Made by a program: the position numbers and the translations under genes. A stretch of 64,000 nucleotides of DNA from Blastocatellia bacterium (GTDB lineage: Bacteria > Acidobacteriota > Blastocatellia > Pyrinomonadales > Pyrinomonadaceae): contig PMSM01000010.1 in assembly GCA_003168335.1 (NCBI GenBank), positions 272,001 through 336,000 of the forward strand. Direction: 5' to 3'. The notes beneath the pieces are model-generated. The model was not told the DNA's origin. It did no database searches and saw only the letters and a list, made by a program, of their open reading frames with translations. This document shows, piece by piece, positions 22,902-25,439 of this stretch; positions within the stretch are counted from its first letter, which is position 1; each line of letters starts with the position of its first letter.

Positions 22902-25439
22902 ATGAGCAGAGAAAAAAGAGTGCGGACACGGTTAGGTTGGCGGTGGCTCACAGCCCTGGGGCTGGCCCTGTCACTCCTGACCGGCATCGTGGTGAGCGAC
23001 AGCGCTAAAGCCCAAAATATCGCGAAGCCCGCTAACGCTTCGGCCACGAGCGCCCTCAGCAAGTACGCCTGGGACCTTACCGCGGCCGCAGAACGGGGTC
23101 GCTTTGATTCGTTGACCGAGCGGCGCGAGGAAACCAACCGGGCCATTGAAATACTTTCCAGTCCTCATAAGAACAATCCGGTGGTCCTGAGTGATTCGCC
23201 AGCCGTCCGCGATCTCGTGGCCTCAGGCGTGGCGCGGCGGATCGCCAAAGGTGATGTACCGGAAGCCCTGCAGGGCAAGCGCCTGTTTAAATTGAATCTT
23301 GAGGCGTTGTTCCACGATTCGAAAACTGCCGGCGAACTCGTAAATAACATTTCGGCAATTCTCTCTGAAGTTTCGCAATCCGATTCGAAAATCATTCTCC
23401 TCGTCGATCCCCTCCAATCTTTGATGGGTCCATCCGCAGCGTTTGATGGCGCCGCTTCCGCGATGTTGCGCGATGCAATTAAGAACGGCGACGTTCAGTG
23501 CTTCGGCGCCTCAACCGACATCGCGTTCCAGGAAAACGTTGCGAGCGACGAATCATTAGCGCCGCTTTTTGCCGGCGTCCAGATGCAGGAAGTTGCTGAC
23601 GCAAGCCAGCAGACTGAAGATAGTGCCCAGGCGAACGCCACGAAAACAAACGCTGAAAAGTTCGTTGGCGACAAGGTCTCGGCGGATTTGCGTGAGTTGG
23701 TCGATAGCCGCAACGCTCCGGCTCGCGTCAAGGCAATCCTGCAAGTCAACGATACCAACAGCCAGGCTCTCCGGGCCCGGCTGGCAGAGTACGGCGTCAA
23801 CGTTGAGGCGCAGATGCCGCAGTTTGGAACTCTGGCCCTGGATCTCCCCACGAAAGCTATTGAGAAGATCGCCAATAGCAGCAGTACCAACTACCTTTCG
23901 CTCGACCGCCCGATCAATGGTCTCGGTCACGTGGAAGAAACCACGGGCGATGAGGCGATGTTGGCGCAGCCTGGTAACAGCCTTCTTGATGGCAGCGCGA
24001 TCGGCGTCGCGATTCTCGATTCAGGTGTTTCGACCAAACAGAAATCGCTGGCCGGTCGGATCGTTTACAGCCGGGACTTTACCGGCGAAGGCACCACCGA
24101 GGATCCGTACGGTCACGGAACCTTCGTAGCATCGATGGTCGCCGGGAAGCACGGCTCGTACGGCGGGATTGCCACGGGCGCGAACCTCGTAAACTTCCGC
24201 GTACTGAATTCACAAGGCACGGGAACGCTTTCGGCACTGCTGGGCGCGTTGGACGCGGTGATGTCCAACCGCACGACCTACAACATTCGCGTAGTTAATA
24301 TGAGCCTGGGAACGACGGCGGTTGATTCGTACAAGAACGACCCGCTCTGCCGCGCCGTCCGGCGCCTGGTTGATGCGGGTATCGTGGTGGTTGCCGCGGC
24401 CGGAAACGACGGGAAAGATCTTCTGCATCCAAAGCTCTACGGCCGCATTCATTCCCCCGGCAACGAGCCTTCGGCGATCACAGTTGGCGCCTCGAATACG
24501 TTTGGTACGGATGCCCGCCATGATGACGGTGTCACCACCTACAGCTCGCGTGGACCGACCCGCAGTTACTGGAAGGACTTGAAAGGTGTCAAGCATTACG
24601 ACAACCTCCTCAAGCCCGACATGGTCGCTCCAGGTAACAAGATCATTGGCGCTGCCGCACCCGGCAATGCCCTGCTGCAACTAAATCCAGGCCTGCTCGT
24701 TGGCAACGCAACCACCGCGAATGGCAAGGGCAATATGCGGCTGAGCGGTACTTCGGTCTCGGCCCCGATTGTCGCCGGCGCGGTCGCGGTACTGTTGGAA
24801 GCCAACCCCAGCCTCTCGCCAAATCTGGTAAAAATGATTCTCATGTACACAGCGCAGCCGCTGGCGAAGTTCAATACGCTCGAACAGGGCGCTGGTGAAC
24901 TGAACCTGGAAGGCGCCGTGCGTTTGGCGAAACTCGTGCGGACTGATTTGTCTTCATCGACAAGAGTGGGTTCGCCCCTTTTGACTTCCGCGCCCCCGAC
25001 ACCGCAGAGCACAATCGCCGGCCAGACTTTCTCATGGTCTCAGGGCGTGCTGTTCAAATACGACTGGGCGAAAGGCCCGGAACTGGTCACCAGGTACCAG
25101 GGAGTCTACGGCCTTGGCGTGCTGTTAAGCGACGGGGTCTTGCTTAGCGATGGCGTACTTGTCGCCGACACCAAACAGCTCTCTAGTGGTGTGCTGGTAA
25201 GCGACAACATCATGTTGAGCAACGGCATCACCATGGGCGACGGAGTCGTCCTGATGAGCAACGGCGTCCTGCTTGCTGACGGAGTCCTTGTCTCCGATGG
25301 CGTGCTCATCGCTGACGGTGTATTAGTCAGCGACGGCGTGTTAGTCGCAGACGGCGTACTTGTCTCCGATGGAGTTCTGGTCGCGGATTCCTCGCGCGAA
25401 GCCACCGGCGACAACACAATCTGCATGCCGGAAGAATAA
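22902..25439 (+). CDS. Exported S8 subtilisin-like protease with dead ClpB-type AAA+ domain and DGVLVSD repeats
   Basis: An 845-aa protein starting at ATG 22902. Residues 1-38 are a signal peptide (ALGLALSLLTGIVVSDSAKA). Residues about 54-232 align in order with the first AAA+ domain of ClpB/ClpC: YAWDLTAAAERGRFD (Clp: YARDLTELARQGKLD), KNNPVVLSDSPAVRD in place of KNNPVLIGEPGVGKT, GDVPEALQGKRLFKL, GELVNNISAILSE, IILLVDPLQSLMG, DVQCFGASTD. Walker A, the Walker B Glu and the arginine fingers are all lost. Residues about 270-345 resemble a subtilase propeptide. The catalytic triad is intact: D373 (AILDSGV), H405 (GHGTFVASMVAG), S618 (SGTSVSAP), with oxyanion N502. Residues 738-830 are repeats of about 7 residues such as DGVLVSDGVLVADGVLV, likely a beta-solenoid. 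A strong terminator follows. Confidence 0.9.
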   Translation: MSREKRVRTRLGWRWLTALGLALSLLTGIVVSDSAKAQNIAKPANASATSALSKYAWDLTAAAERGRFDSLTERREETNRAIEILSSPHKNNPVVLSDSPAVRDLVASGVARRIAKGDVPEALQGKRLFKLNLEALFHDSKTAGELVNNISAILSEVSQSDSKIILLVDPLQSLMGPSAAFDGAASAMLRDAIKNGDVQCFGASTDIAFQENVASDESLAPLFAGVQMQEVADASQQTEDSAQANATKTNAEKFVGDKVSADLRELVDSRNAPARVKAILQVNDTNSQALRARLAEYGVNVEAQMPQFGTLALDLPTKAIEKIANSSSTNYLSLDRPINGLGHVEETTGDEAMLAQPGNSLLDGSAIGVAILDSGVSTKQKSLAGRIVYSRDFTGEGTTEDPYGHGTFVASMVAGKHGSYGGIATGANLVNFRVLNSQGTGTLSALLGALDAVMSNRTTYNIRVVNMSLGTTAVDSYKNDPLCRAVRRLVDAGIVVVAAAGNDGKDLLHPKLYGRIHSPGNEPSAITVGASNTFGTDARHDDGVTTYSSRGPTRSYWKDLKGVKHYDNLLKPDMVAPGNKIIGAAAPGNALLQLNPGLLVGNATTANGKGNMRLSGTSVSAPIVAGAVAVLLEANPSLSPNLVKMILMYTAQPLAKFNTLEQGAGELNLEGAVRLAKLVRTDLSSSTRVGSPLLTSAPPTPQSTIAGQTFSWSQGVLFKYDWAKGPELVTRYQGVYGLGVLLSDGVLLSDGVLVADTKQLSSGVLVSDNIMLSNGITMGDGVVLMSNGVLLADGVLVSDGVLIADGVLVSDGVLVADGVLVSDGVLVADSSREATGDNTICMPEE

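Follow-up and report, generated by a model that had tools for sequence, protein, structure and literature searches.

What a Clp-like domain does at the head of a subtilisin-like protease is the question raised by a single open reading frame of a Blastocatellia bacterium. The frame (22902-25439, plus strand) starts with ATG at 22902, encodes 845 residues, and lies within the window, i.e., the whole stretch of 64,000 nucleotides of contig PMSM01000010.1 that was analysed. The initial annotation had described a ClpB/ClpC-type AAA+ domain at 23061-23597, devoid of catalytic residues and fused to an exported protease; these coordinates are right and correspond to residues 54-232 of the frame. It remained to be established where the domain comes from, what is left of its active site, whether the protease is intact, and what such a combination may be for.

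The region of residues about 50-232 (23049..23597, plus strand), delimited by profiles, fold, and motif alignment, is homologous to the large AAA+ subdomain of ClpB D1, which confirms the proposed likeness. In profile searches, it matched the NCBIfam ClpB model TIGR03346 with E=6.2e-39 and the ClpA model with E=2.5e-32, and the PDB sequences 2p65 and 1jbk were matched with E=3.3e-31 and E=1.8e-30, respectively. The alignment with the ClpB of the same genome had 37.6% identity over 189 aa and scored 113.1 bits, against 3.6 bits for the best of 500 shuffles; a chance resemblance to ClpB is ruled out by the E-values and this control. Two parts of the earlier description have to be narrowed. The match spans positions 134-335 of the 853 of the ClpB model, that is, only the D1 large subdomain; the lid subdomain, D2, and Clp N-domain are absent, the rest of the window protein consisting of the linker, propeptide, S8 domain, and repeats. 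In addition, ClpB is nearer than ClpC (37.6% versus 30.2% identity). A ClpC origin, considered on account of gene adjacency, was ruled out, since both identity and the domain tree place the domain with ClpB. Among the 53 aligned proteins with this fusion, the ClpA model was matched by 52 and the ClpB model by 51 (E<=0.01).

The AAA+ core, for which a structural check had been suggested, was predicted with confidence. The AlphaFold2 model of the domain, built with the 53 aligned sequences as input, had a pLDDT of 92.5 and a pTM of 0.88 and consisted of strands and helices alternating in the AAA+ style. The top PDB match found by Foldseek was 1jbk, ClpB NBD1 (E 9.9e-15, TM 0.83), and the VIA-align Z score to the D1 domains of ClpB and Hsp104 was about 25 (25.3). 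Pfam gave only a sub-threshold match to NBD_SMAX1 (E=0.001-0.014) and, above its cut-offs, labelled the S8 domain alone, which is how the fusion escapes notice.

The motifs quoted in the initial annotation are all present in the window protein. In Walker A, GEPGVGKT has become SDSPAVRD, which departs from the GxxxxGK[ST] pattern. In Walker B, VDPLQ stands for IDELH; the Asp is kept and the Glu is replaced by Pro, so the hhhhDE criterion is not met. In the arginine-finger motif, APLF stands for ERRF, with the RR pair replaced by PL, and the criterion again fails. The pore-loop Tyr is replaced by Thr. The statement that every catalytic position is replaced thus holds for Walker A, the Walker B Glu, and the Arg fingers, but not for the Walker B Asp and the sensor-1 Thr, which remain.

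The same architecture and motif losses were found in the 53 aligned fusions, which, with the predicted fold, supplies both supports asked for in the initial annotation. The Walker A K[S/T] pair was present in none of them (Lys alone in three), and an aromatic pore-loop residue was likewise never observed. Any Arg-finger Arg was retained in six proteins, the other 47 having no Arg at either finger position. The Walker B Glu was found in 20 fusions and the DE pair in 11, in none of these together with the Walker A K[S/T]; because of these remnants, some role of the Walker B site cannot be excluded. On sequence evidence alone, an active ATPase was rejected, given the motif losses in the fusion alignment. 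As a reference, 26 functional Clp D1 domains of the same class were used, in which 56 columns are near-invariant. The pseudo-domains kept 23% of the cells in the 11 catalytic columns versus 43% in the 45 others (Mann-Whitney, one-sided p=0.023). The assignment of columns as catalytic was the authors' choice, and selective loss of catalytic residues is only moderately supported by these retention values. Among the best-kept columns were L14, L40, A66, L78, and F179 (45-51 of the 53 fusions), many of the best-kept being hydrophobic and, by appearance, fold-determining.

The decay of the active site is graded across the family, and P-loop or Walker B residues were partly retained in the fusions of loci L034, L010, and L037. 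In another fusion (L016:3376-3948), the former Walker A still reads GETGVGKA, and, to judge from these letters, it may represent a transitional stage between a working and a lost motor.

The S8 catalytic domain had been called intact, and this was borne out. It comprises residues 364-656 (23991..24869, plus strand; Pfam PF00082, E=4.2e-41) and scored 141.6 bits with a cut-off of 21.8. Residues D373, H405, and S618 are taken to be the catalytic triad and N502 the oxyanion Asn, following the roles usual in the S8 family. The matching alignment columns (D334, H366, N463, and S579 of A2; adding 39 gives the protein numbering) are invariant in the 53-row fusion alignment.

The full-length model (pLDDT 74.6) contains the Clp-like domain, a low-confidence linker, the propeptide, and the S8 core. 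The linker between the pseudo-AAA+ domain and the propeptide (residues 233-257; 23598..23672, plus strand) is mostly of low confidence, with model residues 191-211 (protein residues 230-250) below pLDDT 50. The subtilisin-type propeptide (residues about 258-345; 23673..23936, plus strand) was delimited by the secondary structure of the model, in which its elements follow in the order beta-alpha-beta-beta-alpha-beta. The best matches of the full-length model were subtilase pro-forms, namely ProN-Tk-SP 3afg (Foldseek E 6.6e-30) and 3whi. Relatives with S8 only have the same propeptide and catalytic domain without the pseudo-AAA+ domain.

At the other end of the protein, residues 1-38 (22902..23015, plus strand) resemble a signal peptide, as read from the sequence, having a basic n-region, a hydrophobic core, and AKAQ before N; cleavage at residue 38 is a guess. 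Export was judged by a hydrophobicity rule, which demands a hydrophobic 12-mer with K/R within the 15 preceding residues, inside the 60 aa before the domain. All 53 fusions passed it, as did two of the 26 functional Clp proteins and 1036 of 5300 shuffled versions of these stretches, i.e., about a fifth. The described placement of the domain, after a signal-like segment and before the propeptide and S8 domain, agrees with this rule in 53/53 fusions and with the model folds.

A C-terminal array of hexapeptide repeats of the DGVLVS/DGVLVA type was recognized from the translation at 25110..25392 (plus strand; limits approximate), with tandem repeats detected at 25263-25384. In profile searches, it had weak, sub-threshold matches to left-handed beta-helix families, and it was not placed by the full-length model, whose pLDDT is under 50 from model residue 700 on. 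Comparable arrays are present in S8-only relatives, and the letters vary by protein: GVLVSD, GMLMSD (L121), and GVLWAD (L132). From the letters alone, the copies look as if they had been homogenised.

The protein is probably best understood as an exported pro-subtilase in which an ATP-dead ClpB-derived domain belongs to the prodomain and serves passively, by binding protein or by restraint. Homology, fold, motif loss, the single clade, purifying selection, the S8 triad, and the signal-like segment were computed in the analysis; the role of the domain is inferred, and the foldase, inhibitor, or client-binding prodomain suggested in the initial annotation is likewise a conjecture. According to the proposed scheme, the large AAA+ subdomain of ClpB D1 would have been captured once, apparently from a ClpB of this lineage, and the copy would have lost its ATP-binding and hydrolysis residues while being retained for its fold. 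Inserted between the signal peptide and an ordinary subtilisin propeptide, it would be part of a fusion protein that reaches its folded zymogen state outside the cytoplasm. There, the pseudo-AAA+ domain may work without ATP, either by recruiting a partner or clients or by restraining the zymogen. Since ATP-binding residues are lacking and the site would contain little ATP, a passive module is the best reading. Subtilases self-cleave after the propeptide. The pseudo-AAA+ domain should therefore leave the catalytic domain on maturation, because it is N-terminal to the propeptide, and would depart together with it when the propeptide is cut; this, too, is inferred. A further version, put forward only tentatively, is that the Pyrinomonadaceae have evolved a counterpart of Clp-type proteases that works outside the cytoplasm without ATP, in which the pseudo-AAA+ domain would passively recognise clients or a partner for the secreted subtilase zymogen.

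It is possible, if doubtful, that the domain merely extends the prodomain as a structural or inhibitory element, assisting folding or occluding the active site in cis, without binding any external partner. Its location immediately before the propeptide and the hydrophobic, seemingly fold-determining character of many best-kept columns would suit such an extension; however, the S8-only relatives manage without the domain, and the model separates it from the propeptide by a low-confidence linker.

Gene neighbourhoods were compared across wide flanks of 19 fusion loci. In six of them (the window, L081-L084, and L087), the surroundings included nnrD/nnrE, tsaE, murJ, and a response regulator, or part of this set. 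In the other 13, the fusion was followed on the same strand by a GNAT-cluster gene, and 12 of these 13 loci also had a GGDEF-EAL-cluster gene. As these genes recur after the fusion, a link between the system and c-di-GMP signalling is possible; the fusion gene of the window has neither GNAT nor GGDEF-EAL neighbours. The family names were checked with Pfam on two members of each cluster. In the GGDEF-EAL proteins checked, the GGDEF motif was intact in 4/4 and the EAL motif was matched in 3/4. In a paralogue group other than that of the window, the genes for the pseudo-Clp subtilase, the GNAT acetyltransferase, and the membrane-bound GGDEF-EAL protein follow one another on one strand (L074:1788-7756, L088:9076-15362, L089, L090, L093, and others).

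In five g1 genomes (L074/L075, L076, L078, L079, and L080), a paralogue is divergent from clpC or lies within about 15 kb of it. This proximity, together with the well-predicted D1 fold, counts in favour of a partnership with a live AAA+ protein, in which the domain would join or cap a Clp ring in trans; a precedent is the pairing of LULL1 with TorsinA in the ER lumen (PMC4999309). Such a partnership is unlikely: the signal-like segment occurs in 53/53 fusions versus 2/26 functional Clps, and 47 of the 53 fusions lack Arg at both finger positions. In most of the five g1 clpC loci, an Omp85/POTRA gene follows (Pfam on L075 only). Divergent Clp-like ATPases of large size, whose P-loop is intact or nearly so, were observed in L097:1312-11209, L194, L198, L200, and L199. 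Several of these have a SGMSYVGQWENRLLAILK-type stretch, and up to three occur in a row; they belong to other Blastocatellia families, and L198 also has an S8 frame.

All 53 aligned fusions come from one family, the Pyrinomonadaceae (f1; Acidobacteriota, Blastocatellia), which is known mostly through environmental genomes. The fusion was found in at least 60 of the 119 Pyrinomonadaceae genomes searched, comprising 52 from the class search (matches running from the Clp domain to the propeptide), seven from other loci, and one from a further search. Among the matches listed for 43 + 278 non-family genomes, none extended from the Clp domain to the propeptide, and the longest one (G408), in a frame as long as a ClpB, reached no further than query position 225 of 316. 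In a domain-profile search of 25 non-family genomes, no Clp-S8 fusion was present among the eight unclear loci inspected, the remaining matches being judged on frame length alone. Within these limits, no fusion was recorded outside the Pyrinomonadaceae. A GTDB scan with S8 patterns yielded three fusions in 80 of 493 loci and, with this coverage, said little on other phyla. One of the three was new (L121); it is labelled only Acidobacteriota and groups with the f1 members. A standalone exported pseudo-Clp protein was sought in 10 genomes and not seen; the other Clp-domain proteins, as far as inspected, were ClpA/B/C/V-like or divergent ATPases, according to the authors' own labels from length and N-terminal motif, and part of the matches were inspected.

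The ML domain tree was built from the 53 pseudo-domains and the ClpA-, ClpB-, ClpC-, and ClpV-like domains of the same genomes, leaving out three divergent Clp-like ATPases (L097). The pseudo-domains formed one clade inside ClpB (UFB 76), joined to the ClpBs of genomes G000, G005, and G034 at UFB 100, with deeper ClpB forks at 51-52. The S8 tree contained 141 sequences, 54 of them fusions, after seven of 148 had been dropped (under 300 model positions); the GTDB loci L117 and L125, being repeats of L047 and L063, were left out. The fusion label required two changes on this tree, a number as low as which was reached in 0/500 shuffles, and one origin is not excluded. Two S8-only sequences of family f2 (L023 and L026) sit inside the fusion clade, so that loss, transfer, or tree error must be assumed. 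Long branches in the trees call for caution. On this sequence evidence, the fusion is a lineage trait, probably with one origin.

The dN/dS ratios were calculated for five close pairs with S8 identity over 80%, one of which was saturated, with no usable dS. The four usable pairs gave 0.11, 0.08, 0.12, and 0.22 for the Clp-like domain, and the S8 domain ranged from 0.05 to 0.12 (five pairs); dN of the Clp-like domain exceeded that of the S8 domain by a factor of 1.5 to 2.6. The ratios are rough because dS exceeded 1 in most pairs. Within this roughness, the computation shows that the pseudo-AAA+ domain is under purifying selection, and the reading frame through it is uninterrupted in the 53 diverged fusions. 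That the domain is a functionless decaying relic, or its resemblance fortuitous, is highly improbable: rapid divergence and varied P-loop residues could be taken for decay, but dN/dS of 0.08-0.22 in four pairs and an unbroken frame in 53 diverged proteins speak against it, and the E-values and shuffle control exclude chance.

No description of an S8-Clp fusion was found in a limited search of the open-access literature, and Table 3 of a 2008 survey of 227 prokaryotic subtilisin-like proteins contains no S8-AAA or S8-Clp architecture (PMC2605481). Both absences are weak evidence, because the literature search covered open-access papers only and the survey predates most of the genomes analysed. 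New here is the combination of a subtilase with a ClpB domain that is ATP-dead and apparently captured; subtilases and ClpB D1 themselves are known. With ClpB/Hsp100 D1 (TIGR03346; PDB 1jbk, 2p65, and 4hse), the domain shares the large-subdomain sequence, the predicted fold, and the nearest clade. In contrast to ClpB, the window protein lacks Walker A, the Walker B Glu, the Arg fingers, and the pore aromatic residue, as well as the lid, D2, M-domain, and Clp N-domain, and has a signal-like segment and a protease. Subtilases with a propeptide (ProN-Tk-SP 3afg, pro-Tk-subtilisin 2e1p, and fervidolysin 1r6v) share with it the propeptide fold, as predicted by the model, the S8 domain, and the triad, to which the window protein adds the pseudo-AAA+ domain before the propeptide and the C-terminal hexapeptide array. 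ATP-dependent proteases (ClpAP, FtsH, and Lon) combine an AAA+ domain and a protease in one machine. Unlike these, the fusion has no ATP motor residues and is a subtilase-type serine zymogen without a caged chamber.

The luminal domains of LAP1 and LULL1 have an AAA+-like fold. According to PMC4999309, they lack Walker A/B and exert their effect by binding another protein, being located in the lumen of the ER or in the nuclear envelope. They differ from the fusion in supplying an active AAA+ partner with an Arg finger and in having no protease. For the plant SMXL/SMAX1 proteins, PMC12184505 describes degenerate ClpB-type ATPase domains, with the D1M region proposed for partner specificity. The window domain is likewise degenerate and ClpB-type, and it has a weak Pfam NBD_SMAX1 match; however, the plant proteins regulate transcription, comprise Clp-N, D1, M, and D2, and have no protease. 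SMXL and, with TorsinA, LULL1 are precedents for degenerate Clp/AAA+-like domains acting through binding, neither being fused to a protease.

To our knowledge, few AAA+ pseudoenzymes have been described, and none is known to be a secreted bacterial protein. In the Pyrinomonadaceae, a domain of a housekeeping disaggregase has seemingly found a new use outside the cytoplasm, in surroundings expected to contain little ATP, and become attached to a protease. Since the active-site remnants differ among the 53 proteins, it could be followed step by step within this family, and tested, how the motor was lost and a passive role acquired.
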